Below the pieces are notes generated by a model. The model saw only the letters and a list, made by a program, of their open reading frames with translations, made no database searches and was not told the origin of the DNA. 64,000 bases of DNA from Filomicrobium sp. (GTDB lineage: Bacteria > Pseudomonadota > Alphaproteobacteria > Rhizobiales > Hyphomicrobiaceae), in assembly GCA_017792465.1 (NCBI GenBank), contig CP051234.1, forward strand, positions 870,606 to 934,605, read 5' to 3'. The position numbers and the translations under genes are program-made. Of the stretch, positions 13,742-36,600 are shown in pieces; the first letter of the stretch is position 1; each line of letters opens with the position of its first letter.

Positions 13742-14983
13742 CTAGCAGCGCCGGCTAGCGCCAGATATTTCCAACGGATCCGACGGCGTGTCGATTGTAA
13801 TGAACTCTTGAAGTTCTGTCGTACCTGGCCCGATCGTTAATGGATTCTTCTCACCTGGCAGGACGCAAACGTCAAAGAGTTCCGACATGCTGCCGTCGAA
13901 GCGCAACCATTGCGCGACATCCCCGGAAGAGAGATTTATCACCTGCACCCCGCACCATGCATCCGCATCCTTGGCATCCAGCGTTTCGCCCAAGGCGAGT
14001 CCGTCGAAACGCTTGATACGCGGCTTTGACAATGTGACGAATGCATAGCCGTTGTGAAAAGAAAGGCCGCGCAAGAAGCCCGGACAGAACGTCAACGGCT
14101 CAAAAGACTTCGTCTTCGGCTCGACAAACCCGAGTTCGCCAGTGCCCGAATTCAGAACCCAGAGACGGCCATCATACCAGCGGGGTGAATGCGGCATCGA
14201 TAGACCCTGAGCAACGATCTCATCGGTCTGGATATCGATGATTACGCCGCCATCCCGGCGCCGGTCGCGCCAGCCGTCGATGACGTCCGAGCGACAAACC
14301 GCCGAAGCATACTTTGGCTCGCCGTCAACCATCGCCAATCCGTTAAGGTGGCAGCGGTCTTCCGGTGCCAGTTTGGAAATGAAGCGCGGCTTCCAGATTG
14401 GCTTGAACGAATGCGTGATGCTCGGTTCGCAAAGGCATGAATAGGACGTGTTGATGAAAACCATAACGCCGTTCTTGCGGACACCTAGTTCGTGAATGTC
14501 GATGGAACCGGTTACCTGGAAATTGCGCGGGACGTAGAGCCTGTCGTGGACGCTGTTGACGAGTTGCCCTGGCGAGAGCACGTTTTCGAGGCGGACAACT
14601 TCGGTGAGCGTGCCGAGATAAATTCGGTCTTGATTGCCAACGAGGCCCATCGCCTGAGGATAGCGGGCCTCATGCAACGCCAGCTTGCCGTCATCCGCGT
14701 GCCCGAGCAGGTACAGTCCTCCAGACTGATAGGAGGTGAAGGCCACCGATATGTTCTGGCTTGCTAAGAAGTTGGCAAGGCCCCGTGAGAACGAAATTTC
14801 TGACTCGGATACCGACGGGGCAACCGGTTCACCAGACTCATCGGTCTGGCCGCCCGTTTCAGTCTGAGAAGGTTGGCCCTGCGTTTCCGTCATCTCTGTG
14901 CTCGATTCTGGTTTTGCGGCAGAATAGGCGATGTTGTGCGACTCACCCAAAAAAGCGGCGTTCGCAAATATCACTTGTTGCAT
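13742..14983 (-). CDS. TIGR03032-family protein
   Basis: Protein of 413 residues in the TIGR03032 family, whose function is not established. After a low-complexity, acidic N-terminal 60 residues rich in Gln, Glu, Ser and Thr, the body starts at FSRGLANFLASQNISVAFTS and shows repeating sheet-like blocks (YLLGHADDGKLALHEARYPQ, GVMVFINTSYSCLCEP, MPHSPRWYDGRLWVLNSGTG) that suggest a beta-propeller. HSPRWYDGRLWVLNSGTGELG is the most family-specific stretch. The start is uncertain: ATG at 14893 in the same frame is also possible. A GNAT-like gene follows upstream on the same strand 72 bp away. A direct repeat of GCCGGCTAGC at about 13737-13759 spans the stop codon. Confidence 0.75.
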   Translation of the reverse strand: MQQVIFANAAFLGESHNIAYSAAKPESSTEMTETQGQPSQTETGGQTDESGEPVAPSVSESEISFSRGLANFLASQNISVAFTSYQSGGLYLLGHADDGKLALHEARYPQAMGLVGNQDRIYLGTLTEVVRLENVLSPGQLVNSVHDRLYVPRNFQVTGSIDIHELGVRKNGVMVFINTSYSCLCEPSITHSFKPIWKPRFISKLAPEDRCHLNGLAMVDGEPKYASAVCRSDVIDGWRDRRRDGGVIIDIQTDEIVAQGLSMPHSPRWYDGRLWVLNSGTGELGFVEPKTKSFEPLTFCPGFLRGLSFHNGYAFVTLSKPRIKRFDGLALGETLDAKDADAWCGVQVINLSSGDVAQWLRFDGSMSELFDVCVLPGEKNPLTIGPGTTELQEFITIDTPSDPLEISGASRRC

Positions 14984-16473: not shown

Positions 16474-17133
16474 AGCCGAACTGAAGCTCCGAGATTGCGA
16501 AATCGCGCCGGTCCGGATGATTGGTCGGCGCTGTGCGTCTTCTTTGAGTCATGCTGCAGTAAATCGCTCATGACTAGAAAAAAGATACATGACGTTGATG
16601 ATTGCAGACTGTTACCGGCACCGCGTTGCGAAACACGCGATTTGTTCATATGGCCAGTTTATTGATAATTCGCGTCAGAAATAATCCTTGAGCCGAGATT
16701 CAACAAAAAAGAATCAAGTCCTTCTTTAATTCTATTTTCGCAGCCAATGAGCCTTTCCCGAACAAAGTATTGCCACCTCAATTTCATATCCTCTTTTGAA
16801 TAAAGCTGCTTGCGACCAGCACTTACACTTCGCGTGCCTCCATAGATATGCATCGCGCGCAGAGGGCTTCGTGCGAACCGAGCACATCGCGGCCAGTCGG
16901 CGCAACGGCCGGTGAGATAAGGCTCGCTGAATATTTTACTGTTTGTGCCCTCGGGCTCCATCTTCGCGGCCTCATCGGCATGCTGAGCGACCACCGAGGA
17001 TCAACACTCCCAAATGCTCTAATTGCGAAGACAATTTCTAGACAGCACGACGCAGATATCTGCGTGAGATTGAAATCGGGTTTTGGTGTGGCGGCATATT
17101 TTCCTGGTCCAGCAAAGGAGAAAGACCAAAGAG
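16474..17133. other. AT-richer intergenic region, no supported gene
   Basis: About 660 bp, partly of lower GC than its surroundings (around 16560-16830). A minus-strand frame at 16659-16994 has no recognisable family and no clear ribosome site. AAAGGAG at 17115-17120 is the ribosome site region of the YceI gene. Confidence 0.45.
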
Positions 17134-17853
17134 ATGGAAAATGCAGCTTTAATTCAGGGTCGTGTGCCTCGCGAAATACCTACGTCATTCAACCACGCGC
17201 CGACGCGCCAGAAGCGAATAGCGCCAGGACCAACACCCCCAATTCGAAACCGATTTCGAGCGATTGTTCCAATTGTGCTCGTCAACGGTTTAATCGCCGC
17301 CGCACCGCCGGCGCACGCCGACCGCTATGAATTCGATCCGCGGCGCACGGAGGTCCGCTTCTCCTACGTCATGGCCTTTGCGACGCAGCGCGGCCGGTTC
17401 ACGAAAGTGAAGGGCACGCTCGACTATGACGAAAATGCTCCTGAGAAAAGTAAGGTGCGGGCCTCAATTGCTGCGGCCAGTCTTTCGACCGGTGAAGCGA
17501 TTGTCGATAGCAAGCTCAAAGGGGCGGACTTTTTCAATGTGGAAGCTGCCCCCGTCATTTCGTTCAAAAGTCTGGACGTCAAAGCGCACTCAGCAACCAA
17601 GGCTGACGTTGCGGGCGAAATCACCGTCAACGGGATCACGCGTCCCGTCGTCTTAAAAGTTACGCTGGAACCCCACGACGATCCGGCGCTCAAGTTCGAT
17701 GTCGGGGCGCGGAAATTTTCAGCGACCACGAGAATCCAACGTAGCGCATTCAATATGACCTCCTATCAAGCCTTGGTCGAAGATGAGGTCAATCTGGAGA
17801 TCGAAGCCATCGTCCGTCCCAGAAAGCGCCGCCAGAAGCAAGCCGGACGCTGA
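17134..17853 (+). CDS. YceI-family periplasmic protein
   Basis: 239 residues; YceI proteins are lipocalin-like barrels that bind isoprenoid or other lipophilic molecules in the periplasm. After an unusually long 45-residue basic leader there is a hydrophobic signal segment (AIVPIVLVNGLIAAAPPAHA) and then the mature start DRYEFDPRRTEVRF. Conserved blocks follow: KVKGTLDYDENAPEKSKVRA, SIAAASLSTGEAIVDSKLKG, FNVEAAPVISFKS and EITVNGITRPVVL. A strong terminator lies 36 bp after the stop. The long leader suggests translation may start later, but no inner ATG was found before the signal. Role here is unknown; it faces the porin gene tail to tail. Confidence 0.88.
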   Translation: MENAALIQGRVPREIPTSFNHAPTRQKRIAPGPTPPIRNRFRAIVPIVLVNGLIAAAPPAHADRYEFDPRRTEVRFSYVMAFATQRGRFTKVKGTLDYDENAPEKSKVRASIAAASLSTGEAIVDSKLKGADFFNVEAAPVISFKSLDVKAHSATKADVAGEITVNGITRPVVLKVTLEPHDDPALKFDVGARKFSATTRIQRSAFNMTSYQALVEDEVNLEIEAIVRPRKRRQKQAGR

Positions 17854-17968: not shown

Positions 17969-19615
17969 CTAGAATTTCCGCCTGACTTCCGCGCGAACGC
18001 CGAAGTTGTCTTCAGCGCTTTCCTGAAACTGATAAGTTGCATCTGCGCGAAACAGCCAGGCGCGGGTGATCGGGATTTGATAACGCGTGCCGAATGCGTA
18101 CTGCGGATCCTTGGCACCGATGCCATCGTCGTCGAAGGGCTGCACCATCGCCACTTCGAAGACGAGCTGCTGATCCAGATTGAACAGGTACTGCACGCCA
18201 ATAGCCCCGCCGAACGCGTTGGACGCTGTGTCGTCGATCTTCGGATAGCCGGTCAGCGCGTCGGTCTCGAAGTTGATGCCGACGTTTTTCAGGATGCCTG
18301 CGTTGTTGCCATCGACGAGCGGTTGCGGAGCGCCGACGCCGACGAAGAAGTTGGCGTAGGGCAGAAATGTGCTGGGCAGGCCCGAGATCAGGCTGTTCTC
18401 CGATATGATGGCAACGCCGTCGCCGTTTTCACTCGAACCGTTTTCAAAATTGGCGAACACGCGTGTCGAATTCGACAGGGTGTTATAATAGCGGCGCGTA
18501 TAAGCGGCGGTGAAGAAGTGCTTGATCAGCCCCTCCTGCTCATCGACGCCTTGCACAAGACCGTATCCGGCTTCGATGTAACCGTCGAAGGCGTCGACGA
18601 AGGCGGTCACGCCGAAAAGATTGGCGCTGTGATTGTCGACCTTGCCGTCCCGTCCGACGACGCTGGCGTTATCGACGTTATCGAACGCGGCAAAGAACGT
18701 GATGTCGTAATTGGAAAGACCAAGTGCCGGCGAGTTCTGCGCCGGCAGCGAGATCGCGCCGCCAAGGATTGCGTCATTGGCCCAGATCCCGTTTTGCAGG
18801 AAGAGCGGAAAAAGGCCAACGGTGAAGGGAAGATCGAAGCTTGAATCGCGTGAGGTGAAGCCGGAATAGAGGGCACCAAGATCCCCTTCGAAAAACAGCG
18901 TCTGCGGGTTGGCTTCGAACTCATCGCTGAATTCGCGGTCGCCGTCGCTGCCGCCAAATTCATACCGCGTGAATTTCACATTGCCTTCCTGAAGCGGCGT
19001 AAAAAACGCGTGGATGCGCTCGGTCGCGGTGATTTTCAGATCAACGTCCAGGTTCAATCGCGTCGCGATTTGCGCGATGTCTTTTCCGTTATTATTGTTG
19101 TAGGCGACCGCGGTTCGCCAATCGCCATAAACCGCAAGACCGGGAAGCAGCGGGTTCTTTTCACCGAGCAGTGTGCTGCTCTCATCATAGATGCCTGAGG
19201 TGTATTGCTGGCGCCCGAACTCCAGCGGCGGACGTGGCGGGTCCACCGCAACCTTCCCGCCATAGATGTCGATTTGCTCTTGCGGGTCGTATGGCTTTTC
19301 GTAGCTGGGATCAGGCAAAAAGGGGTCGCGATTGCTTGCTGAAGCGGTGCGCTTTCCTTTGCCGGCCGCCTGTGTTTTCCAGCCTCCATCCGGTGGTGAA
19401 TCTTTCGAATGACCCAGTGCGCCATCGACTTGCCGGGCGCCCAGCCAGATCGGCGGAATGAAGCCCGCCTGATAGTCTGCGCTATAATAATCCTGCGCGT
19501 TGGCCGACTTTGACGTTGCCGCCGAAATCGCGAACATGCTTGCAGCTGAAAGCAACATCGGAGCGACAGCAGCCTGGGCGATGCGCCGCGGCATGCCTCG
19601 GGAGAGACCATCCAT
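17969..19615 (-). CDS. Outer-membrane beta-barrel (porin-like) paired with a multiheme cytochrome
   Basis: 548 residues with a signal peptide cut near SANAQ-DYY at about residue 40. A proline-rich linker to residue about 130 is followed by a region of alternating polar and hydrophobic strands with many aromatic turns (RIHAFFTPLQEGNVKFTRYEF, YFNLDQQ-type strands) and a final strand ending VRAEVRRKF, the aromatic C-terminus expected for BAM substrates. It lies 71 bp downstream of the pentaheme cytochrome on the same strand, so one transcript encodes both. Porin-cytochrome pairs of this kind carry electrons across the outer membrane in metal-respiring bacteria. No close match to MtrB, PioB or OmbB is evident by eye, so the electron-conduit role is inference from context. 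Confidence 0.7.
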   Translation of the reverse strand: MDGLSRGMPRRIAQAAVAPMLLSAASMFAISAATSKSANAQDYYSADYQAGFIPPIWLGARQVDGALGHSKDSPPDGGWKTQAAGKGKRTASASNRDPFLPDPSYEKPYDPQEQIDIYGGKVAVDPPRPPLEFGRQQYTSGIYDESSTLLGEKNPLLPGLAVYGDWRTAVAYNNNNGKDIAQIATRLNLDVDLKITATERIHAFFTPLQEGNVKFTRYEFGGSDGDREFSDEFEANPQTLFFEGDLGALYSGFTSRDSSFDLPFTVGLFPLFLQNGIWANDAILGGAISLPAQNSPALGLSNYDITFFAAFDNVDNASVVGRDGKVDNHSANLFGVTAFVDAFDGYIEAGYGLVQGVDEQEGLIKHFFTAAYTRRYYNTLSNSTRVFANFENGSSENGDGVAIISENSLISGLPSTFLPYANFFVGVGAPQPLVDGNNAGILKNVGINFETDALTGYPKIDDTASNAFGGAIGVQYLFNLDQQLVFEVAMVQPFDDDGIGAKDPQYAFGTRYQIPITRAWLFRADATYQFQESAEDNFGVRAEVRRKF

Positions 19616-19686
19616 GCGAATGTTCCAAGTCTTGAGATAAATTGTAATTCAGGGTGATTGCCAGGACCGAGACTTCGGTCGCAGGC

Positions 19687-21606
19687 TTATTGCTTTACAT
19701 CGACGTCCACGGCGAAGACGTGGAAGTTCATAATTCGCTCGTTCATGCTCTGCTCCATGGCCCTCGTCGAACCGACAAAACGCATGAAATAAATTGGCTC
19801 GGCGCGGCTGCGCATGCGGAAGGCGAGTTGATACTTTCCGGGTTTCTTGATCAGATTTCCCGGCACCCGGTAGCTCGCGACGTGTTTGCCCAACGGCGGC
19901 AACGAGCGGTTTTCCATGCGAACCAGCGGCGGGTGATTGAGAACCGTTGTGGGAATTGCCGGCGGCCGCAAATGCGGTAGCGGATCGATATCGAAATTGA
20001 CCGGCAGATACATTTCGCGGTCGGTACCTTTAACATTGGTTGTCAGGAATTTGGTTTGGAAATGCACGAGCTGCTGGTCGGTCGCGATACGGCCGGCTGC
20101 GACATCCAGGCTATGCAGATCGGCGACATCGCCATTGCTATCGACGTAGCCTGACTCCCAGATGTTTTTTCCATCGGGGTCCAGAAGGGCGACGTTGACC
20201 CATAGCTGGGGCTGGGCACCCAGCGATCCGGACGGCAGGTTGTGGCCTGTGTTGGTGTTCTTGATCGTATAAGAGAACGCCAAATCCTCGCCGATTCTCG
20301 TTGGTCCCTCGATCAGAGGACCATCGATGTGACTGCTGTTCTCCATCACCTGACGGCGGATCTCGTCGCGCTCATCAAGTCTGGCGATATTCTCCTCGAT
20401 GATGGCGCGGGCGTCTTCACGATCGAGCGCGTCGGCCCAGCGCGGCGGGAACTTGACCTTGATTTTGCCGTCCGCGACCTTGTCTTCGAAGGCCGTCGTG
20501 CCCCAACCTGCGCGCCAGTCGAACTCAAGCCAATCCTTGATCGAGTAGGCCTGCGCCTTCTTGTTGTGCGGGAAGATGCCCGGGTGGGCGATGGAGTATC
20601 CCGGACCGATGAAGCGATGATTGGCATGCTTGCGGTTCGGATTGACGGCCTTGCCGCCGACAATCGCGGATGGTGCGGTGGAATAGCCTTCGGGCTTTCC
20701 CGGCACCTTACCCATGTGGCAGTCCTGGCACGTCACTCCGGCCTTGCGGGCGGGGCTGTCGCGATACTGATCCCAGACGATTTCCAGCTTGATGCCGAGA
20801 TTGACGGCGACCTGGTGGCAGCTCACGCAGAACTCGGACTTGCTGAGCTGATTGTTGGTGATCATGCCCTTGTGGATCTGGTTGCCGCGCTCTTTCTCGC
20901 TGGTTGCGACCGTGTATGTCTCTTTATTCTTGATGACATCGTTGATGACGCTCTTCTCACCGCTGCCGTAGACGGGTTCAAAGATCTTGCCCGGCTCGAC
21001 GCGGCGCTCACCATTGACTTTGCCATACTGTTCTTTCACCCGGTGGCACGTGATGCACGTCACACCCTCGCGCGAGATCTGACTGCGTTGCCACAGCGGC
21101 GTTTCGCGCTTCTCGCCAAGCTGGGTTCCGACCTGCTGGTGACAACGGACACAGAACGTTCCGACAGTGCCTTGTGTCAGCTCCTGAAACTTCTGCTCAA
21201 ATTTGTGAAACATCGGCGAGATCGACGCATAAGCGTGGTTGGACGACGCCCACTCTTCGTAGATCTGCTTGTGACACTCGCCGCATTCGGCAGCGGTGGG
21301 ATAAAGGCTCAGGTCGACCGTGTCGCCGCCGTGCTCGACCGGACTGGGCTTGTTTTGATCGACTATTTCGACAGCGCGCACCGCCCAGCCATCTTCCGTC
21401 TCGTCCTGCTTGACGAAAGCCCGAAGTGCATCGACGGGATCGCTTGATTTCGCTTGGGCAATTTTTATTCGGGCAGTCGAACTTTTCGCGGTCTTACCTT
21501 GCCGACCAAGCGGCTCGCTTACGGCATAACCGTTCGTAAAAATAGGAATCCAAAAGGCACAGACAAAAACCCAAGCCGATATCGACGGGCCAGAAAATCG
21601 GTTCAT
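19687..21606 (-). CDS. Exported pentaheme c-type cytochrome with C-terminal beta domain
   Basis: 639 residues from ATG at 21606 (GTG one codon earlier is possible). An N-terminal hydrophobic segment (WVFVCAFWIPIFTNGYAV) directs export. Five CXXCH heme sites are present: CGECH (about 108), CVRCH (152), CITCH (184), CVSCH (260) and CQDCH (293), arranged as in cytochrome c554-like multiheme proteins. Extra histidines such as SSNHAY and NRKHANHRF could serve as distal ligands. Residues about 400-635 form a separate, mostly beta domain (LAFSYTIKNTNTGHNLPSGS) without hemes. The porin-like gene follows on the same transcript. Periplasmic or outer-membrane electron carrier is the likely role; donor and acceptor are unknown. 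Confidence 0.88.
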   Translation of the reverse strand: MNRFSGPSISAWVFVCAFWIPIFTNGYAVSEPLGRQGKTAKSSTARIKIAQAKSSDPVDALRAFVKQDETEDGWAVRAVEIVDQNKPSPVEHGGDTVDLSLYPTAAECGECHKQIYEEWASSNHAYASISPMFHKFEQKFQELTQGTVGTFCVRCHQQVGTQLGEKRETPLWQRSQISREGVTCITCHRVKEQYGKVNGERRVEPGKIFEPVYGSGEKSVINDVIKNKETYTVATSEKERGNQIHKGMITNNQLSKSEFCVSCHQVAVNLGIKLEIVWDQYRDSPARKAGVTCQDCHMGKVPGKPEGYSTAPSAIVGGKAVNPNRKHANHRFIGPGYSIAHPGIFPHNKKAQAYSIKDWLEFDWRAGWGTTAFEDKVADGKIKVKFPPRWADALDREDARAIIEENIARLDERDEIRRQVMENSSHIDGPLIEGPTRIGEDLAFSYTIKNTNTGHNLPSGSLGAQPQLWVNVALLDPDGKNIWESGYVDSNGDVADLHSLDVAAGRIATDQQLVHFQTKFLTTNVKGTDREMYLPVNFDIDPLPHLRPPAIPTTVLNHPPLVRMENRSLPPLGKHVASYRVPGNLIKKPGKYQLAFRMRSRAEPIYFMRFVGSTRAMEQSMNERIMNFHVFAVDVDVKQ

Positions 21607-22171
21607 CACGGTCCCCCCAGCCGCCTATTTTAATTCGGCGGCATTTCGCTTCGATTGCCCAATAAATATAATTGAATGGGCATCTGGACCTCCCCGTCCC
21701 GACCAACGGTAGCAGCGATCGTTAAGGCGAAATTAGGCCGAGATAAGGCCGCTTACTTATTGAAAAACATAGATTAGTTGGGCAGCTCATTATTTCGGAA
21801 AAGTGCATAAGGTAGCCTGCCGCATTTTTCGCCACTATCGCAAATAACGGGAATTATTATTCTCTTTTTTCAGTCGCCAATTGACACATTTCGCAATCAT
21901 TGTAACGGCTGATATTCCGTTTCGACTCATAAGTCGCGAGCAAACCAAATCGCCTTTGTTTGACCATAAACCTTGAACAATCAAAGAGAAGAAAACAGCG
22001 AATTGCAAAGCCGGTATTTCCAACCGAACGTGGATGTCTCAATCAATTTTTAGTCGAAGGCATCGGCAAGGAAATGCTCGAGCTGGCTAGATCCAAATCA
22101 CCCGCCCGCGACGGCTGCATGGCGCACTTGCGGGCGCAAGACTTCAATTTCAAGCATTCCAGGATGGGACG
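21607..22171. other. Divergent control region of the multiheme cytochrome block
   Basis: 565 bp without a supported gene, separating the minus-strand cytochrome-porin pair from the plus-strand reductase-cytochrome set. It is AT-rich between about 21760 and 22010, as expected for promoters, but I could not assign -35/-10 pairs. No TTGA-N6-TCAA (Fnr/FixK) box was found. A ribosome site AGGA at 22161-22164 serves the reductase gene. Confidence 0.5.
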
Positions 22172-23272
22172 ATGGCGAGAATCTGCCAGATCACTGTCAA
22201 CGGTCACGCGTTCACGGCTCAACCAGGAGAGTTGCTCCTTGATGCAGCCCTGAAAAATGGGATTGATCTGCCTTACGACTGCCGGTCCGGCCAGTGCGGT
22301 ACGTGTTGCGTTCAGCTCGTGTCGGGCAAGGTGTCAGGCGGCGAGGGTGCTGAACCGGGTACGGTTCACGCCTGCCAGTGCCGCATCGCCGGTGATGCCG
22401 TGATCCAACGAGGTCAACGCTCGCAGCTCAGCACAATCGATGGCGTCGTTAGCGTCTTGCGTCCGGTGACGTCTGAAGTCATGGAAGTGGGCATCAAGGT
22501 GGATCGTGCGCTGCCATATCTGCCCGGGCAGTATGGCCGGTTGCGTTTCAGGGGCTATCCGAGCCGGGCCTTCAGCATGACGCACGCCTTGCTCAGCGAC
22601 CCGGATACGGCCTCGATATGGTTTCATATCCGGCGTGTTGCCGATGGCCGCGTCAGTTCAGCGCTCGGTCAGCGCATTTTGCCGGGCCACCGCGTGACAT
22701 TAACTGGGCCATATGGTTCGGCGCATTTCCGGCCGGACCAAACCAACCGCATGTTGTTGGTCGCGACCAGCACCGGCTTTGCACCGATATGGTCGATCGC
22801 TGCTGCAGCGCTTCGCGAAAATCCGCAGCGCGCGATCATGGTCATCGCTGGCGGCCGCAAACTTGAATCCCTCTACATGGCTCCTGCCCTGGAGCGGTTG
22901 GCGAGCTTTCCGAATGTCCGCGTGATCCCTGTTTGCAGCACACCTCAGACGGCCTTTTCGTCGGTGCAATATGGGCGGCCAACCGACTACCTGCCCCACC
23001 TTCTGCCAATGGACGTGGTTTACGCGTGTGGCGCACCAGGATTGGTTGATGCGATCAAGTCAGTTGCCGCTCGCAGTGGAGCGGTCTGCTATGCCGACCC
23101 ATTCGTTCCTTCCAGCAATGACGAAGACACCGGCACTGCCAGTCCAACGCCGACGCTCGCTCGACCGGTTTCTTTGATGGACCGTTTGTACCCGAGGTTG
23201 GCTCCGGCCGGTCATACGCTTCGCGGTCCTGACCTGCCGAAAGGATCGCCCCAGTTGCCTGAACATGCGTGA
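22172..23272 (+). CDS. [2Fe-2S] ferredoxin/FAD/NAD(P)-type reductase
   Basis: 366 residues, no signal peptide, so cytoplasmic or on the inner membrane face. Residues 1-90 form a plant-type ferredoxin domain with cluster ligands C37, C42, C45 and C68. Residues about 95-200 are the FAD-binding barrel with RAFSMTH as the flavin motif, and about 200-320 the nucleotide-binding domain (LLVATSTGFAPIWSIAAAAL, YACGAPGLVDAI). This architecture belongs to oxygenase reductases (phenol hydroxylase P5, methane monooxygenase C), but no oxygenase is nearby; instead it leads a set with two multiheme cytochromes and a b-type membrane protein. It may feed electrons from NAD(P)H into that chain or return them. 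A proline-rich tail of 45 residues is unusual. Confidence 0.88.
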   Translation: MARICQITVNGHAFTAQPGELLLDAALKNGIDLPYDCRSGQCGTCCVQLVSGKVSGGEGAEPGTVHACQCRIAGDAVIQRGQRSQLSTIDGVVSVLRPVTSEVMEVGIKVDRALPYLPGQYGRLRFRGYPSRAFSMTHALLSDPDTASIWFHIRRVADGRVSSALGQRILPGHRVTLTGPYGSAHFRPDQTNRMLLVATSTGFAPIWSIAAAALRENPQRAIMVIAGGRKLESLYMAPALERLASFPNVRVIPVCSTPQTAFSSVQYGRPTDYLPHLLPMDVVYACGAPGLVDAIKSVAARSGAVCYADPFVPSSNDEDTGTASPTPTLARPVSLMDRLYPRLAPAGHTLRGPDLPKGSPQLPEHA

Positions 23273-23281
23273 GGTGCGTTC

Positions 23282-24346
23282 GTGGCGCAAACTCCCCGTC
23301 GCTGCATCCTGCCCCGACCTTCGAAAAGAGCCTTTGTGGCTGCTTTGATCGTTTGCCTGTGCGCTTACCTGCCGGTCCTCGCACTCGTAAGCAAAGGTGC
23401 CGGGGCGAACGTTCCGCCAATGACGCTTGGGCCTAACGTTTGCGGCGAGTGCCACAAGCAGGAAGTCCTGGCCTGGAAACAGTCGCACCATTTCAAGACA
23501 TTCCGCGAAATGCCACGCAGACGCCGCGCCAAAGACATTTCGAAGAAGATGGGTGTGCGGCGCGTGAAGTCGGAAAGCTTGTGCCTCAACTGCCATTTCA
23601 CGGTTCAAAAAAAGAACGACAAGTCTCGGCCGATCGCAGGCATCTCCTGTGAATCCTGCCACGGCCAAGGCCTGAAATGGGTCAAGGTGCATAGTAGTTA
23701 TAGCGGCAAGAAAGCCGATACCGAATCCAAGGCCGAGGAGAAAGCGCGCTGGAAAAAGGCTGATGCCAACGGAATGATCCGGCCCAGCGCGCTCTACCAA
23801 TTGGCCAAGAACTGCTACGGCTGCCACGTCGTGCCGAACGAAAAACTCGTCAACAAAGGCGGGCACCGGGCCGGCAGCCCCTTCGATATGGTGTCCTGGT
23901 CGCAAGGCGAAGTGCGCCACAACACCTGGCACTCGAAGGGCAAGGACAACGTGGTGGCGAACGCCTCCCGCAGGCGCATGCTCTTTATCGTCGGCCTTGG
24001 CGTGGAACTCGAAACCTCGCTGCGTGCGCTAGCAAAGGCCACGCTTAGAAGTGTCTATGCGTTCGAGATGGCAAGTCGCGTCGACCGCGCGCGCAGGCAA
24101 TTGGCTGCAGCCGCGAAAGCTCTGCCGAAAGTTCCAGAAATCGCCGAGTTGGTCCGGCAGGCTCACTCCGCCGGACTGAAGCTTGGCAACCAGAGTGCTT
24201 TGACGGGAGCCGCCGATGGCGTTTCGCGGCTCGTTATCAGCATTGCCAAGAAATACGACGGCGCCGCATTCGCCGGGATCGACCGGCTAATTTTGGGCCC
24301 GAAGAAATATCGAGGGAAAGTCTACCAATCGAGCGGCGCAAACTAA
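23282..24346 (+). CDS. Membrane-anchored tetraheme c-type cytochrome (c554-like)
   Basis: 354 residues from a GTG at 23282, 9 bp after the reductase stop, with GAGGTG as ribosome site. A single hydrophobic segment at about 17-36 is an uncleaved anchor or signal. Four CXXCH sites follow: CGECH (54), CLNCH (101), CESCH (123) and CYGCH (178), with the opening motif GPNVCGECHKQEVLAWKQSH typical of cytochrome c554-family proteins (QSHHFKTF provides distal-ligand histidines). The C-terminal 150 residues are helical and heme-free. It is a likely periplasmic relay between the b-type membrane protein and the decaheme cytochrome of the same operon. Confidence 0.87.
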   Translation: MAQTPRRCILPRPSKRAFVAALIVCLCAYLPVLALVSKGAGANVPPMTLGPNVCGECHKQEVLAWKQSHHFKTFREMPRRRRAKDISKKMGVRRVKSESLCLNCHFTVQKKNDKSRPIAGISCESCHGQGLKWVKVHSSYSGKKADTESKAEEKARWKKADANGMIRPSALYQLAKNCYGCHVVPNEKLVNKGGHRAGSPFDMVSWSQGEVRHNTWHSKGKDNVVANASRRRMLFIVGLGVELETSLRALAKATLRSVYAFEMASRVDRARRQLAAAAKALPKVPEIAELVRQAHSAGLKLGNQSALTGAADGVSRLVISIAKKYDGAAFAGIDRLILGPKKYRGKVYQSSGAN

Positions 24347-24419
24347 CGACTGGCCGCAGCGCGACTGGATATTTTTGAAGAACGGGGGGAACCGAAATGT
24401 TTGAGGACAGGGGGCGTCT

Positions 24420-25319
24420 ATGGCCGGGGTTCATACACTTAAAGGTGCGATAGGCCGGCGCGATCCGAATTCCGCGCGCGGCCATTTCAGGACAATCGTC
24501 CAGGCCCTCCTATTTGGTTCGATATCGGCCATGCTGTTCTGGCTCGTCGCGGCATACGGCAACGCTTTGCGAGATCCGCGCTATCTTGATGGATGGGTGT
24601 TGGCTGGCGGCATGGGCGTGCAGCTTTATTTTCACGTTGCTACCGCGACAGGACGTCTGACACCGAAGGCTGCCGCTCGATGGCGCAGCCTCCATATATT
24701 TTTCGGATTGCTGCTGGTCCCGGTTTTTCTGTTGCACTCAAATTTCTCGCTTCCCGATACCAACTTCGAGTGGGCGCTGTGGATCGCGTTCGTTCTAATA
24801 TGTCTGAGTGGCTTATTTGGCATCTATATCTCCTGGTCGCTCAAGTCGCGGCACATGTTCGGCGACGATATCGTTTTGGACCGCATCCCCGAAGAGAGGG
24901 CCAAACTCGCCCGAGAAGTTCAAGCCATCGCAGCCAGGATCGATCAAGCCCCTGCCGCGAGCGCGCTGCCCCCGCCGCCGCATGACGCCTGGATTCGCGA
25001 ACTTTATGCCAGCCGGCTCATTGGCTTTTTTTCCAAACGCCGAAACGCTTTTTCTCATCTCATCGGTTCAAAACGGCCGCTGAAGCAGTTGACCGACGAG
25101 ATCGATCACTTAACGGGCTTTGTCGATAAGAGAGGCCAGGAAAAACTTCGAGCGATCAGGCGATTGGTAATTGAAAAAGACCGGCTGGACGCCGCGAACG
25201 TTGCGTTGGGGCTTTCCAGGGCCTGGCTTCTCGTCCATGTGCCCGTCACCTATTCGATTGTTATTTTGGCGGTGGTGCACATCCTCGTCGTCTATTCATT
25301 TTCTTCCGGAGCCTATTGA
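24420..25319 (+). CDS. Integral membrane protein with diheme cytochrome b histidine pattern
   Basis: 299 residues with about five membrane segments: near 29-47, 58-75, 91-107, 117-138 and 268-293. Histidines H92 and H106 lie 14 residues apart in one segment, and H273 and H287 are also 14 apart in the last one. This paired spacing is the hallmark of helices that hold two stacked b hemes. H72 is an extra membrane histidine. A charged cytoplasmic or periplasmic loop of about 130 residues (140-265) with coiled-coil character separates the halves. AGGGGG precedes the ATG, and its stop overlaps the start of the decaheme gene. I do not recognise the family by name; transmembrane electron transfer between the reductase or quinol and the c-type cytochromes is inferred. 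Confidence 0.72.
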   Translation: MAGVHTLKGAIGRRDPNSARGHFRTIVQALLFGSISAMLFWLVAAYGNALRDPRYLDGWVLAGGMGVQLYFHVATATGRLTPKAAARWRSLHIFFGLLLVPVFLLHSNFSLPDTNFEWALWIAFVLICLSGLFGIYISWSLKSRHMFGDDIVLDRIPEERAKLAREVQAIAARIDQAPAASALPPPPHDAWIRELYASRLIGFFSKRRNAFSHLIGSKRPLKQLTDEIDHLTGFVDKRGQEKLRAIRRLVIEKDRLDAANVALGLSRAWLLVHVPVTYSIVILAVVHILVVYSFSSGAY

Positions 25320-27772
25320 TGCGGCACAGTGTGCGGCTCCGAAAAGCCCGGACCGAACCTACGAGAGCCCAAGGCACTCCTGCCTCCGTGCGCAACCGAC
25401 TGGCCGCCGTCGTCGCGCTCGCCACCCTCGTTTTCATCGGTTCGGTGTTTCTTCTTGCGGGAAGCAAATCCTTCATGATGCCGGGACCGCTGACGAGTGC
25501 GCATGGTTCAATTGCGGACTGTAAAACGTGTCACACGAAAAGCGGTGACGGCAAGCTGAGCTGGCTACATGGTCTGGTTGCAGGCGATCCGGTCGCCGAC
25601 AGCAAAGCCTGTCTTAGCTGCCACAAAATGCCCGACACAGCGCTCAATCCACATAGCGCTTCGGTCGACATCCTGAAGCAGAGCACTGCACGCCTTACCA
25701 AGACTGCCTCAAACTTGGTTGTCCCCCAATCGGTGCGCGCGCAATCGATTGCCTTCCCGGTCGACGGAATGATTGGCCGAGGCCTTTTTTGCGCGACCTG
25801 CCATCAGGAGCATCAAGGCACCAATTTCGAATTGAACAAGATCACCAGCGAGCAGTGCCGGTCCTGCCATGCCGTCAAGTTCGACAGCTTCGACGGCCAA
25901 CACCCGGAGTTCGAATCCTTCCCGTTCAGAAGGCGAACGCGGATCATCTATGACCATGCCGGTCATTTCGGCAAACACTTCCCCGAAGTCGCCAAGAAGG
26001 AGCCGGGCATGCGCATCCCTCAGACTTGCGCATCCTGCCACGACAGCCGCGACGATAACGGGGTCATGTCCGTTGTGGCTTTCGACAAGACCTGCGCCAG
26101 CTGCCATTCCGATCAAATCTCCGGCAAGGAACGCGCGACCGGACCGAAGGGCATTGCCTTCCTGGCGCTGCCGGGCATCGATCTGGCTTCTATCAAAACG
26201 AAAAAGGTGGCGATCGGCGAGTGGCCGGAGGACTCCGAGGCTCCCCTCACGCCGTTCCTCAAGATGATGATCAGTCGCAACAAAAAGGGCCGCAGGCTCA
26301 TCGCGGCGATTGAACCTCTCGATCTGCAGGACCTTTCGAACGCCAGTGACGATCAGGTCAAGGCGGTGAGTGAACTTGCATGGGAAATCAAGTCGCTGCT
26401 TTACGCGATGATTACGGGCAAGACGCAAGAGGCGTTCGGCGATCTTGGTATCGGTGCCAAACTCAATGCCGATGTTGTAGGTAGCCTCACGGCAAGCCTG
26501 CCGCGCGACGTGCTGATTGCGGCCCAACAGAAATGGCTGCCAAATCTGTCAGCCGAGATGACCAATGGTCCTGGCGTTGCTCTTAACTTAGAGAGCAACC
26601 AATCAACCGTCAGCGCTGAGCCGGCCACGCCTGAAGAGGACCAAGACGCGTCCACAGAGGAGGCCGAAGCTGCGTCCATCGATGAGCCAGTAGATTACGG
26701 GCCTGCCCCAGCAAGCACTGCGCCCGCCGGCTCGGCGAACACAAGCCAAAAAACGGCGGAAGAGGGTCGCAATCCGCAAGCCTGTATCGCCAGTATTTTC
26801 GGCCAATGCCTCCTACTCAAATCCGATGGGGACACGGCGGACAATGCTCAAGCAGAAGAACGCGAGGCGCCGCAAAATTTGCAAGGCGCATTCCGGGTCG
26901 GCCTTGGAGACGTCCGCGCACCACCCAAGCCAAAAGCGCAATCAGGTGGAATTACGATCGCACAAGCCAGTCCTAAAGGCGGCAAGGGCCCGCCATCGGC
27001 AGTTGGCAAACGCAATGCGACAAACCAGAACGACGACCTCCTATTCCCCTCCGATGCCGAATTGCGCGCACTCAATGCTCACCGCAAAAAAGCCGGACGG
27101 GGAGCACGGGATGGACGCCGCAACCCTGCTGCTGCCCCTCTTGCGCCAGGACCAGAGACCAGCCCTGGCAATCGCCAAGCGAACGCAGCGCAAAGCGCAT
27201 CCATCGCAAGCGACATCGATCCGGAGAACTGGGCAGAACATGGCGGCTGGTATCAGCAGGATCACGCAATCTTCTATCGCCCCACAGGGCACAAAGACCA
27301 GTTCATATTCAACTGGTTGACGCTGACCGGGCCGAAAGCAACACTAGGCGCCGCCAACCCTGCAGCAGAGGTTTTCGATGCGCTCACCGGCAAGGACGCA
27401 CAAGGCTCATGCGCCAAATGCCATAGCGTCGACGCAGTCAAAGGCCGGGGACGAACGATCAATTTCCCGCCTCTTTCCGTCGCCATGAAGCAAGGACGTT
27501 TCACGCGTTTCGTCCATGAGCCTCATTTTAATGTCGTCGGAAAGCGCGGCTGCATGACCTGCCATAACTTAGAAAAAGACCGCCCTTATCTAAAGGGCTA
27601 CGAACAGGGCGATCCGTTGAAATTCCAGACCGAGTTCAGCCCGGTCAAAAAGGAAACCTGCAAGACCTGTCACGCCGAAGGCAGAGCGCGACAAGATTGC
27701 CTGCTCTGCCACAAGTATCACCTGCCGAACGTGACTGCGCCGGTTACAGAGACGACGCTTCGGTCCCCGTAG
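25319..27772 (+). CDS. Decaheme c-type cytochrome with two heme domains and long linker
   Basis: 817 residues; ATG at 25319 overlaps the previous stop (TGATG), implying coupled translation. A hydrophobic anchor covers about 28-48. Ten CXXCH sites fall in two groups: six at C68, C98, C158, C180, C237 and C259, and four at C698, C745, C781 and C794. Between them lie a helical globular stretch (about 285-425) and a low-complexity linker of about 230 residues rich in Ala, Pro, Glu, Ser and Gly. The first group resembles class III/doubleCXXCH cytochromes (FDKTCASCHSD, FVHEPHF before hemes). The linker could let the distal heme domain reach across the periplasm toward the outer-membrane partner. 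Function as terminal periplasmic carrier is inferred. Confidence 0.88.
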   Translation: MRHSVRLRKARTEPTRAQGTPASVRNRLAAVVALATLVFIGSVFLLAGSKSFMMPGPLTSAHGSIADCKTCHTKSGDGKLSWLHGLVAGDPVADSKACLSCHKMPDTALNPHSASVDILKQSTARLTKTASNLVVPQSVRAQSIAFPVDGMIGRGLFCATCHQEHQGTNFELNKITSEQCRSCHAVKFDSFDGQHPEFESFPFRRRTRIIYDHAGHFGKHFPEVAKKEPGMRIPQTCASCHDSRDDNGVMSVVAFDKTCASCHSDQISGKERATGPKGIAFLALPGIDLASIKTKKVAIGEWPEDSEAPLTPFLKMMISRNKKGRRLIAAIEPLDLQDLSNASDDQVKAVSELAWEIKSLLYAMITGKTQEAFGDLGIGAKLNADVVGSLTASLPRDVLIAAQQKWLPNLSAEMTNGPGVALNLESNQSTVSAEPATPEEDQDASTEEAEAASIDEPVDYGPAPASTAPAGSANTSQKTAEEGRNPQACIASIFGQCLLLKSDGDTADNAQAEEREAPQNLQGAFRVGLGDVRAPPKPKAQSGGITIAQASPKGGKGPPSAVGKRNATNQNDDLLFPSDAELRALNAHRKKAGRGARDGRRNPAAAPLAPGPETSPGNRQANAAQSASIASDIDPENWAEHGGWYQQDHAIFYRPTGHKDQFIFNWLTLTGPKATLGAANPAAEVFDALTGKDAQGSCAKCHSVDAVKGRGRTINFPPLSVAMKQGRFTRFVHEPHFNVVGKRGCMTCHNLEKDRPYLKGYEQGDPLKFQTEFSPVKKETCKTCHAEGRARQDCLLCHKYHLPNVTAPVTETTLRSP

Positions 27773-32420: not shown

Positions 32421-33125
32421 CTATCGTACAAAGCGCTGCATTGTATTGCGCCGATAGTTTGAAACCATTTCATAACAATCGCAGCACGAGTTCGTCAGTC
32501 GCTCTTTGTCATTCAATTCGATACGGCCACGATCGCGGCGAATTGCACCTTTGGCTTCGAGACGCTTCAGCGCATCGGAAATCGTCGCGCGACGAACATT
32601 GATAATGTCCGCGAGAAACTCGTGAGTCAGCCTGATGACCGGCTCGTCGCTTCGATCGATCATCATCAAGAGCCAGCGCGCAAGACGTTCATCTACGCCG
32701 TGGGCACCGTTGCAGGCGGCGGAAATCATGATTTGATAAATGAATATGTCGGCATAACGCTTTGTTAAGCTGCGAAATTCCTCGTCCTCGCGGACAAGTT
32801 CGTCGAAGTCCTCGCGCTTCATGGCGTAGGCATGGCCGGCAACCTGTACGACGTACGTGCCGGGTTGAACCTGGCCGTCTAGGAGCCCTGTGATACCGGC
32901 AAAACCTTCGCGACCGACTGTTGCAACCTCAATTAAGTTGCCGGATGCGTAAGTTGCCAAGATCGATATCACGCCCTCGGTCGGGAAGAAGACACGGTCG
33001 AGCGGGCTGCCCGCTTCAGACAGTGTTTCACTCTGAACGAGCTCAATCTTCTCGCACGAAGATATGATCTGCCGGCTCTTGGCATCGTCGATCAATCCGA
33101 GAAGTTCATTTTGGTTTGCACTCAT
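32421..33125 (-). CDS. Crp/Fnr-family transcriptional regulator
   Basis: 234 residues. Residues about 20-140 form a cyclic-nucleotide-binding-like barrel (FFPTEGVISILATYASGNLI, VATVGREGFAGI), and about 150-225 a winged helix with LTHEFLADIINVRRATISDA as the helix-turn-helix. There is no N-terminal cysteine set for an Fe-S cluster, so it is not an Fnr-type oxygen sensor. Proteins of this subgroup (short-loop, GREGF motif) occur next to stress and signalling genes in Rhizobiales. It stands alone, opposite in direction to the ammonium-channel fusion; targets are unknown. Confidence 0.9.
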   Translation of the reverse strand: MSANQNELLGLIDDAKSRQIISSCEKIELVQSETLSEAGSPLDRVFFPTEGVISILATYASGNLIEVATVGREGFAGITGLLDGQVQPGTYVVQVAGHAYAMKREDFDELVREDEEFRSLTKRYADIFIYQIMISAACNGAHGVDERLARWLLMMIDRSDEPVIRLTHEFLADIINVRRATISDALKRLEAKGAIRRDRGRIELNDKERLTNSCCDCYEMVSNYRRNTMQRFVR

Positions 33126-33610
33126 GAACCACGTAACGGTTCACGGAAGAGTATGGTTCCGGCAGCGCCAACGTTCTATTGACGCACGCAATCGCAGATC
33201 TAGACGAACGATTTGAAATGAGTCGGATGGCAAATCGCTTGTGAGCCTTTGCATCACATCGTTGCAGCTGGTTGTCGCGCTTAGCACTCGCCGCCCTTAG
33301 TTTCTTTGTGAATCCGAATGGGCTGCGACATCTGTCTCGGCCATGAGGCAAGCGCGCTGATGAGTTCAAGCGGTCCCGCCTGGTTAAGTCGTATTTCGAA
33401 CCGTCGGGAATTTTGAGACGATCGCCGATGCGCAGACGGCAAATAGTTTTTAAAGAAATGAAATCGACAAAGTATATCGCAAGCGACATTTCGACACGAT
33501 TCAGCACTATAAGTCCTGAAAATACAGGCTTTTTCTCAAGTTCAATTCAGCAAATATTAGGTTTAACTGGGTAATAGTTTTTATACAAACCATTACTTGA
33601 GTATGCCGTG
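33126..33610. other. Intergenic region, no gene seen
   Basis: 485 bp separating the divergent Crp-family regulator and the Amt fusion. The part next to the Amt gene (33520-33605) is AT-rich and probably holds its promoter. No recognisable operator or RNA was found. Confidence 0.45.
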
Positions 33611-36600
33611 ATGAATTTGTTCGGGGTCTTGTCAAAACGCACTGCGGGCGGCGCTATCGGGATAGCGTTCGCGACCATCTTATTCGCCAGTGGCGCGAGG
33701 GCTTCTCCGGCAACATCATTGGAAGCGCGCATTGACGCGCTGGAAAGATCTGCCAGCAATCTGGACTATGTTTGGACGCTTGTGGCTGCGTCGCTGGTCC
33801 TCTTGATGCAAGCTGGATTTCTCCTGCAAGAAGCAGGACTTGTTCGATCGAAGAACGCGATCAGCGTTGCCCAGAAGAACCTTCTAGATTTTGCCGTTTC
33901 AGTCGTCGTCTTTGCGGCCGTCGGTTTCATGCTGGCATTTGGCAAAGAGTCTTTTGGCTTTCTTTTTGCCTTCGACGCGAATTTCTTCTTCCTTTCAGAA
34001 CTTACGCCGTGGGAATATGCATTCTTTGTTTTCCAGGTCATGTTCTGCGGCACAGCGGCGACGATTATCTCCGGGGCCGTCGCCGAGCGCATGAAGCTTT
34101 CGGCTTACCTGTTATGTACGGCTCTGACGGCGGGCATCATTTATCCGATGTTTGCCCATTGGGCTTGGGGAGCGGCCTTAGCCGAAAACGAAACGGCTTT
34201 CCTGTCTAACTGGGGCTTCGTCGATTTTGCTGGATCGACCGTCGTCCATTCGACTGGAGCATGGATTGCTCTGGCAGCCTGTCTGATTATCGGGCCGCGC
34301 GTTGGCAAGTTCGACGAGAACGGCAAACCGGTTCGTATCCAGGGACACAACATGGTGCTCGCATCCTGCGGCGCGTTGTTGCTTCTTGTCGGCTGGATCG
34401 GCTTTAACGGCGGCTCCACAACTCAAGCGAATACCGACATCGCCAAGATTATCGCGAACACGGTGCTGGCAGCGGGAACCGGTGCGTCGGCAGCCTATAT
34501 CCTCTGCGTGTGGTTGGACGGCGGTCGCGTCCTGCCAGAAAAAACGATTACGGGAATGATCGGCGGCCTTGTCGCGATCACGGCAGGCTGTCACGCTTTA
34601 GAGCCGCACGGCGCGATTATTATCGGCGCTGTTGGTGGCGCGGTGGCTGTGTTCGGCAACTGGTGGCTCGAAAGGTATCTGAAAATCGATGACCCGATCG
34701 GCGCCATCGGTGCGCATGGATTTGCCGGCGTTGCTGGCACGGTCGGACTGGCGCTACTCGCCCCTCTTGCAAACCTTCCGGCGGGAAGCCGTTACGATCA
34801 ACTCGTTATTCAGCTTAGCGGCGTTGGCATAAATTTCGTCTGGGGTTTTGGTCTGGGCATCGTCTTTTTCTATGGTCTCAGCCGGATCTATTCCGTCAGG
34901 ATCGGCGGCAGTGACGAAGCCCAGGGCTTGAATTGCGCCGAACACGGCACGCTCATGGGCGTCGGCCATGTTGAAAACGCACTTTCGGATCTGGTCACCG
35001 GTTCAGCCGATCTGGATATGCGCCTGCCGGTGAAGTCAGGAGATGAAGCCGAGCGGCTTACGCGGCTCTTCAACGACCTGATGGACAATATCCAGGCGGA
35101 AGAATATTCAAAAATCAAGGAAGCCGATGCGCGTCGCTCTGCCGAAGAAGCAGAGCGCCTGTCGGCCCTTGCGAATAGCGCGTTTGAAGCGATCATCATT
35201 TCTATCGATGGCCGTATTATCGATTGCAACATTGCTTTCGAAGAGATGATCGGCCTATCGCTTTCAGAGCTTGAGGGGCGGGCGCTCATCAGTCTGTTCC
35301 AGGAAGATGAGAACAGCCAGCTATCGACGCACTTCGCGGAACTGCGGCCGCCTCTCCTGGAAACGGCACTTCTCGATCAAGCCGGAACGGCTATCCCGAT
35401 CGAGTTGCGCGGGCGAGAGATTGTTTTCCGCAACCAGAAAACGCGGGTCACGGCGATTAGCGATTTGCGCGAGCGCAAACTTGCCGATGAACGCATTCGT
35501 TATCTTGCCAATCACGATTCGCTGACCGGTCTTCCCAATCGGACGGTGTTTCAGGAGCGCCTGGCACAAGCGGTTGCAAAATCCAAAGGCACGAGAACCA
35601 CGACGGCCGTCTTTTTGGTCGACCTGGACCGGTTCAAGGATGTCAACGACCTTTATGGACATCCCGCCGGCGACACGGTCATCCGAACGGCATCGGAGCG
35701 TCTACACGCATCCGTTCGCAAGACCGACACCGTAGCGCGGCTTGGTGGCGATGAATTCGCCATCATCCAGAGCGGAATTCTATTCCGAACTCATGCCGAA
35801 GATTTGGCGCATCGCGTCATTGCCGCGCTCGCCGAACCGATCGATCTGGGCGATGGCACCTCGATCCGTACTGGTGGAAGCGTCGGCATTGCCTTGTGTC
35901 CGAGCCACACCGAAGATGCCGACGAACTCGTCAACAAGGCTGACACTGCGCTATACCGGGCGAAAGACAACGGGCGGAACACCTATTGCTTCTTTGAAGA
36001 TGGGATGGATGTCGCTTTGAAAATCCGCCGCAATACAGAAGCGGCTTTGGAACGCGCCATCGAGGAAGAGCAGTTCGAACTTTGGTTCCAGCCCTTTGTC
36101 GAGCTTAAGACAGGCACAGTGACCGGCCACGAGGCCTTGCTGCGTTGGCGCTCGCCTGACAAAGGCCTGATCCCGCCTCAGGACTTCATTCCGATCGCCG
36201 AGGAGTCTGGCAAAATTATCCGGATCGGTGACTGGGCTCTTCGCAAGAGCTGTGAAATCGCCAAGGCAAACGAGGCGATCAAGCAAGTCAGCGTCAATGT
36301 GAGCCCGATACAATTCCGCGACAAATCTTTCGTCGAGGGCGTGCAAAACATCCTCAAGGAAACGGGGTTGGAACCCAATCGCCTTGAACTTGAGATCACA
36401 GAAAACGTCCTCATCCAGCAGGACGATGTCCGCGCGCTCGCCATGCTGCGCTGCTTAAAGGAATTTGGCATCCGTATAGCGCTTGACGACTTCGGGACGG
36501 GCTATTCGTCCTTGAGTTACCTCAGCCGTTTCCCGTTCGACAAAATCAAGATCGACAAATCGTTCGTTCAAAAACTTTCAGATGGCGAAGGCGCTGCAGA

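Follow-up and report, generated by a model that had tools for sequence, protein, structure and literature searches.

What a block of six genes with three multiheme cytochromes does in the cell envelope, and how its parts came together, is the question raised by a 64,000-nucleotide stretch of Filomicrobium sp. (contig CP051234.1 of assembly GCA_017792465.1, positions 870,606 to 934,605), which is here called the window and whose own numbering is used throughout. The host genome consists of one contig of 4.47 Mb, and the block is formed by two operons pointing away from a divergent intergenic region of 562 bases (21610–22171). On the minus strand (17969–21609), cyt5 (19687–21609), an exported pentaheme cytochrome of 640 residues with a C-terminal beta domain, recognized by CXXCH count and profiles, is followed by OMP (17969–19615), a 548-residue protein that sequence features mark as a probable outer-membrane beta-barrel. 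The plus-strand operon (22172–27772) opens with FNR1 (22172–23272), a 2Fe-2S/FAD/NAD(P) reductase of 366 residues in which the Fer2 domain comes first and which is presumably cytoplasmic, and continues with cyt4 (23282–24346), a presumably periplasmic tetraheme cytochrome of 354 residues with a cytochrome c554 domain, cytB (24420–25319), an integral membrane protein of 299 residues that is probably a diheme cytochrome b, and cyt10 (25319–27772), a decaheme cytochrome in which alignment and segment analysis place a likely N-terminal hydrophobic anchor and 6 + 4 hemes flanking a variable linker. An earlier note on this DNA had described two divergent operons with six open reading frames (ORFs) and 5 + 4 + 10 CXXCH motifs, which was confirmed by an ORF check and a motif count (cyt5 5, cyt4 4, cyt10 10; total 19). 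Three other ORFs of at least 80 codons in the window carry one such motif apiece. When residues were shuffled, the three cytochromes had on average 0.004, 0.009 and 0.020 motifs, with a maximum of 2 (2000 shuffles each), so that 19 motifs are far beyond chance expectation. The same note had regarded the system as unrecognised, and this part has to be withdrawn, since it was named PCC4 in 2017 by He et al. (PMC5566968).

Judged from protein distances, the block is composed of two co-inherited modules, an outer one (OMP and cyt5) and an inner one (cyt4, cytB and cyt10). Pairwise distance correlations reached 0.98 for OMP and cyt5, 0.95 for cytB and cyt10, 0.86 for cyt4 and cyt10 and 0.84 for cyt4 and cytB, whereas those of OMP or cyt5 with the three inner proteins were just 0.34–0.57, values in which shared ancestry is uncorrected. 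FNR1, compared within the window type only, gave 0.75 with cyt4, 0.73 with cyt10, 0.48 with OMP and 0.01 with cyt5. The loci were divided into group I (the window type), group II (resembling Subgroup II of PCC4) and group III (other members of the class Alphaproteobacteria). Mean identity between groups I and II was 25% for OMP, 35% for cyt5, 50% for cyt4, 32% for cytB and 33% for cyt10, and the corresponding values between groups I and III were 46%, 59%, 30%, 24% and 25%. The ranges of the two comparisons (21–30% versus 42–50% for OMP, 42–60% versus 25–34% for cyt4) never overlapped, except that those of cyt10 touched at 28%. In this way, the inner module of the window clusters with Subgroup II and its outer module with other Alphaproteobacteria.

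The same split was recovered in quick trees of 25 loci holding the barrel, the pentaheme, the decaheme, and the tetraheme or cytB (28 barrel, 30 pentaheme and 38 decaheme rows were available; L031, a duplicate of L019, and rows below the per-protein length were dropped), in which the conflicting branches had a Shimodaira–Hasegawa-like approximate likelihood ratio (SH-aLRT) support of 100. In approximately unbiased (AU) tests, whose groups were named only once the first trees had been viewed, the inner grouping was 846 log-likelihood units worse on outer data (p 2e-65) and the outer grouping 500 units worse on inner data (p 2e-6); also rejected were the union of all six group III loci on outer data (p 1e-67) and that of group II with locus L090 on inner data (p 3e-5). 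L090 is a reverse hybrid, with OMP (49%) and cyt5 (58%) near group II and cyt4 (52%) and cyt10 (45%) near group III. Four outer/inner pairings were found, namely those of the window type, group II, group III and L090, the fourth being one locus on a 75 kb contig. In place of exchange, the conflict could reflect long-branch effects or chimeric assembly of metagenomes, considering that several genomes are fragmented, that L091 forms a long branch, that six rows of the inner tree have unusual composition, that a very long branch separates the two outer types, and that the groups were post hoc and the fourth pairing a single locus. This explanation is nevertheless quite improbable, because the raw identities split alike without any tree, as seen above for OMP and cyt4, and because the window and L094 come from single-contig genomes.

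Over evolutionary time, lineages thus seem to have exchanged the outer and inner halves with one another. We lean towards regarding PCC4 as a plug-and-socket design, in which a standard outer port, composed of barrel and pentaheme, would be exchanged as a unit and joined to differing inner modules, the window being such a hybrid, and hold this to be somewhat likelier true than false. Compared with the Subgroup II-like version, that of the window has a distinct NAD(P)H reductase and is devoid of the Fe-S adaptor. Module exchange in PCC4 seems to be new, given that no mention of it was found in the available passages of He et al. (PMC5566968) or among the literature matches listed.

The modules were also found apart. 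Of the class genomes in which cyt5 was detected (31), seven had no cyt4 above threshold; these seven were searched whole for cyt4 and cyt5 only, and neighbouring genes were judged within the fetched 20 kb. In L124, L125 and L130, OMP and cyt5 lie beside different tetraheme genes (25–30% identity to cyt4), with no decaheme recognized in that stretch, and in L127 they stand alone. L126 and L128 combine a different tetraheme with a distant decaheme (29–30%), a cytB relative being recognized in L126 only, while L129 carries a reductase, OMP, cyt5, cyt10, Fe-S genes and a short cyt4 ORF, with no cytB recognized. The tetrahemes of L124, L125, L126, L128 and L130 have, besides four CXXCH motifs, an N-terminal CX4CH (e.g., CAGSTCH), and may therefore bind a fifth heme. 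Conversely, cyt4 occurred without cyt5 in four class genomes, of which G182 and G282 have it on contigs of less than 5 kb and G402 has a locus (L084) of inner genes with neither OMP nor cyt5 in 20 kb. Another inner-module design was observed in L041 (genome G026), in which an 18-heme cytochrome adjoins a cytB relative, a CcmI-like protein and a 4Fe-4S/pyridine-nucleotide reductase.

The six genes of the block are tightly conserved as a set. The earlier note had allowed that the homologues might be scattered, and the contrary was seen, the parts being jointly inherited in the family. A cytB scan of genome contigs retrieved 14 loci, mostly from Hyphomicrobium, Rhodomicrobium and other Hyphomicrobiales/Rhizobiales, one of them in a Methylococcaceae bin whose cytB relative is merely 27% identical. 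The neighbourhood search found all six genes, in identical order and orientation, in 12 fetched stretches (11 distinct) besides the window. Rhodomicrobium locus L021 departs from this order, its cyt5 being located about 5 kb downstream of cyt10. Because only the longest was retained where ORFs overlapped, some genes, and cytB in particular, can be missed by the ORF caller, and "not recognized" is to be read accordingly throughout.

Among 103 genomes of the host family, cyt5 was found in 43, cyt10 in 45 and OMP in 41, each in 13 of 25 genera; in the 76 genomes with a completeness of 90% or more and a contamination of 5% or less, the counts were 33, 33 and 32. The exceptions were G504 (cyt5 without cyt10 and OMP), G453 (cyt5 and cyt10 without OMP), and G006, G454 and G508 (cyt10 without cyt5), five genomes of 370 to 690 contigs, four of them below 90% completeness and G453 at 95%. 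Where cyt5 and cyt10 were both present (42 family genomes), they were at most 12 kb apart in 38 and on separate contigs in 4, and cyt5 and OMP were at most 1 kb apart in 39 of 41, the remaining 2 having them on separate contigs. In an even draw of 385 genomes from the class, cyt4 was detected in 28, cyt5 in 31 and both in 24, against 2.25 expected by chance (hypergeometric P 6e-28, kinship ignored). Co-occurrence and proximity thus indicate that the homologues are not scattered. The distribution within the host genus (G000–G008) suggests gain, loss or replacement, since the Subgroup I type was found in the window species, a diverged type in G001, G005 and G006, and no match in G002, G003, G004, G007 and G008. 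Two neighbours absent from the window stretch recur elsewhere, a CcmI-like protein (F6) in 12 of 27 stretches and a small tyrosine-rich protein (F7) in 8 of 27; the latter lies near the barrel gene, as at 2630–2983 of L019, whose copy had no Pfam match.

PCC4 was proposed from Hyphomicrobium genomes as a candidate porin-cytochrome conduit with 4-, 5- and 10-heme multiheme cytochromes, a porin and a five-helix inner-membrane protein with two HX13H pairs and SGXXG, and its Subgroup I was described as found in Hyphomicrobium only and as lacking the pfam13247 gene (PMC5566968). By each trait that the available passages allow to compare, the window cluster is an additional member of Subgroup I. A porin, recognized here from sequence features only, and the 4-, 5- and 10-heme cytochromes are present; cytB carries two HX13H pairs and SGXXG, as the five-helix protein does; a redox gene precedes the tetraheme gene in both; no pfam13247 Fe-S gene occurs in the window block; and the host is of Hyphomicrobium type, the nearest loci belonging to Hyphomicrobium, other Hyphomicrobiales and genomes of the same family. 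No difference was found in the published text as far as it was available, the likeness being one of description and not of sequences. Subgroup II-like loci have a homologous inner module and a comparable gene set, and differ by a cyclic-nucleotide-binding and 4Fe-4S protein encoded between cyt4 and cytB, by a reductase with the order FAD-NAD-Fer2, and by an outer module to which that of the window is merely 25–35% identical; their domains were verified on one example each (L035: PF00027 and PF13247). The presence of the Fe-S protein in these loci and its absence from the window is the same difference that He et al. state (PMC5566968, passages available). A full-length copy of this protein was not found in the window's own genome, which gave only partial matches to that of L035 (best E 3e-10 over about 120 of 768 residues).

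With MtrAB, PioAB and MtoAB, the block shares the idea of a barrel, a multiheme cytochrome and an inner-membrane partner, and differs in having a pentaheme instead of a decaheme beside the barrel. In agreement with the earlier note, which had set the block apart from MtrCAB and PioABC, PF11854 (MtrB/PioB) matched 0 of 14 barrel sequences at E 1 and nothing in the window's own genome; the control of the genome search was weak, because the family matched in 1 of 14 control genomes and none reached the cut-off.

The redox parts of the inner operon are well defined. As the earlier note had proposed, FNR1 is a 2Fe-2S/flavin reductase, with Fer2 (PF00111), FAD_binding_6 (PF00970) and NAD_binding_1 (PF00175) all above Pfam cut-offs, and no hydrophobic segment was seen in it by eye. 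The diheme b pattern of the membrane protein was likewise borne out, the two HX13H pairs of cytB (His92/His106 and His273/His287) being kept in 36 of 36 aligned rows; in its SGxxG motif, S130 and G131 are invariant and G134 nearly so (20 rows). The stop codon of cytB and the start of cyt10 overlap as TGATG, which makes ATG 25319 a likelier start for cyt10 than TTG 25316 (817 residues, against 818 from the listed TTG) and suggests that translation of the two genes would be coupled. In the segment analysis, OMP, cyt5 and cyt4 each have a single N-terminal hydrophobic segment resembling a signal peptide, and cyt10 has one at about 29–47 that resembles an uncleaved anchor, cleavage being judged by eye. 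The number of CXXCH motifs was kept in 37 of 39 rows of cyt4, 38 of 38 of cyt10 and 29 of 30 of cyt5, the short counts in cyt4 and cyt5 rows being due to cut or trimmed ORFs where checked. Besides its 4 motif histidines, cyt4 conserves 4 others (37/37 or 39/39 rows), and cyt10 conserves 10 besides its 10 (nine in 38/38, one in 37/38). One near-invariant spare histidine per heme, a pattern obtained from counting and not from structure, suggests that both proteins would serve as pure electron wiring.

These histidines also bear on a possible ammonia- or hydroxylamine-oxidising chain, in which cyt4 would be the cytochrome c554 of hydroxylamine oxidoreductase. The idea draws on the C554 domain of cyt4 (PF13435 at 62.7 bits, cut-off 20.8) and on a weak match to the Nitrosomonas cytochrome c554 model (CycA, NF043010), whose 39.9 bits are, however, far below the cut-off of 400. 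Cytochrome c554 has one five-coordinate heme, while cyt4 keeps four extra histidines, and the chain is hardly credible. A search of the window's own genome with PF13447 gave no match, the controls being likewise empty.

For the outer module, the barrel suggested by the earlier note remains likely from sequence features, which comprise a signal-like N-terminus, a C-terminal Phe and 16 amphipathic segments beyond residue 140 by a home-made score. Profile searches, which yielded domains for FNR1 and cyt4, returned no Pfam family for the window OMP at E <=0.1, nor did it have a PDB sequence match. The AlphaFold models of OMP and cyt5 (mean predicted local distance difference test, pLDDT, 27.2 and 38.5) were unusable, with confidence solely in parts of the C-terminal beta domain of cyt5, likely because of shallow alignments (7 and 9 rows) confined to the window and the loci from the cytB contig scan. 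With this cyt5 model, Foldseek returned 0 matches at E <=0.001 and 865 at E <=10.

The profile of cyt5 matched cytochrome c552 of PDB 5ze8, a 435-residue pentaheme protein of a purple sulfur bacterium, with an overall E of 1.2e-9, in collinear pieces covering hemes 1–3, hemes 4–5 and a C-terminal HxxPTG stretch, of which the first piece alone is significant by itself. The 5 motif histidines and those at 125, 246, 331, 342 and 456 are conserved in every row, and H348 (28/30), H499 (27/29) and H93 (21/22) nearly so, which exceeds the need of five hemes and leaves room for a further role. This raises the alternative of a periplasmic reductase, in which the barrel would only admit a small soluble substrate, a compound of nitrogen, sulfur or a metalloid, and cyt5 would reduce it at the expense of NAD(P)H, for detoxification or respiration. 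It would suit the fact that cyt5 is the best-conserved part within the window type (70–87% identity to the window), the surplus histidines, the position of H456 in a GHNxPxG motif of the C-terminal domain, the small barrel estimate and a weak match of cyt5 to MccA. However, the MccA match spans only 42 profile positions (E 0.0049), and OMP and cyt5 evolve in step, their correlation of 0.98 suiting a physical complex. No known enzyme cluster, the possibility left by the earlier note, was matched: no NCBIfam model reached its cut-off for cyt5, cyt4 or cyt10, and we consider a periplasmic reductase rather unlikely. As for known families, NCBIfam and Pfam yielded generic multiheme similarity only for cyt5 and cyt10, and ExtKL (NF040886), the best NCBIfam match of cyt5, was rejected because it scored 36.2 bits where 250 are required.

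From the gene set, the conservation of hemes and histidines, the joint inheritance and the conflict between the module trees, all read from sequence, we infer an electron route across the envelope. FNR1 would oxidise NAD(P)H on the cytoplasmic side and reduce the b heme pair of cytB, in the manner of ferric reductases and NADPH oxidases (NOX); from there the electrons would reach the membrane-anchored decaheme cyt10, the tetraheme cyt4 and then the pentaheme cyt5, which would be docked inside the barrel or on it, and finally an acceptor at or beyond the outer membrane. The outer module would act as an interchangeable port serving different inner modules. To this account as a whole, in which the PCC4 Subgroup I cluster is a trans-envelope electron chain of two separable modules with an interchangeable outer port and export as the favoured direction, we give an even chance. 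Of the cytoplasm-to-surface path drawn in the earlier note, two elements stand, namely that the redox parts form a coherent series spanning cytoplasm and outer membrane and that they are inherited jointly; reach to the surface and direction stay inferred.

Electrons probably run outward, exporting surplus reductant. Export is favoured because the inner operon opens with the gene of an NAD(P)H-type reductase, because the HX13H pairs are ferric-reductase-like and because no link to RuBisCO was found: it was detected in 5 of 43 cluster-bearing and 14 of 60 other family genomes (Fisher p 0.20), which gives no positive link with Calvin-cycle growth, and none was detected in the window's own genome. 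The reverse flow, in which Fe(II), Mn(II) or another external donor would be oxidised and electrons would enter the quinone pool via cytB, is judged unlikely. Reduction of NAD(P)+ by Fe(II) is uphill by general bioenergetics, and an NAD(P)H-type reductase lies within or near the cluster in most versions. The two HX13H pairs, on the other hand, suit a quinone-active cytochrome b too, and PCC4 was found in a Hyphomicrobium genome of an enrichment that oxidises pyrite, in genomes of drinking-water filters and in four iron-oxidising marine Zetaproteobacteria (PMC5566968).

Several points weigh against outward conduction through a modular chain. The OMP barrel may be small, with 16 segments by a crude score, than which the 26-strand barrel of MtrB is larger, and the pentaheme may not fit inside it. 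No clear lipobox was seen in cyt5 by eye, no surface-exposed cytochrome was identified in the block, and the surplus histidines of cyt5 could also suit a catalytic or metal site. Adjacency is not strict either, as genome G417 has its inner module (L080) and its outer module (L134) on separate contigs. Finally, the model of He et al. runs the other way, with quinone receiving the electrons of an external donor (PMC5566968, passages available). No functional test of PCC4 appeared among the literature matches listed; these showed one further microbial paper naming PCC4, PMC13264449, which in the part available mentions it once and gives no such test, and the matching passage of PMC11475568 merely cites He et al.

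The division into modules leads to several expectations. Complexes of the barrel with the pentaheme and of cytochrome b with the decaheme are predicted, the exchangeable joint is expected between the tetraheme or decaheme and the pentaheme, and the reductase would be replaceable. Extracellular electron exchange in Hyphomicrobium and relatives would thereby become open to testing by gene deletion.

Around the block, a YceI gene adjoins at 17083–17853 and is not counted as part of the cluster, because relatives occur in merely 2 other of the 27 compared stretches. Rfam and tRNA scans of the window gave no matches. A Crp/FNR-type regulator is encoded at 32421–33125 on the minus strand, about 4.6 kb past the cytochrome block, and a DUF4915 protein, by a strong match, at 13742–14983 on the same strand. 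On the plus strand, 33608–36901 encodes a protein of 1097 residues in which an ammonium transporter (PF00909) is fused to HAMP, PAS, GGDEF and EAL domains, a possible ammonium-sensing enzyme of cyclic di-GMP turnover.

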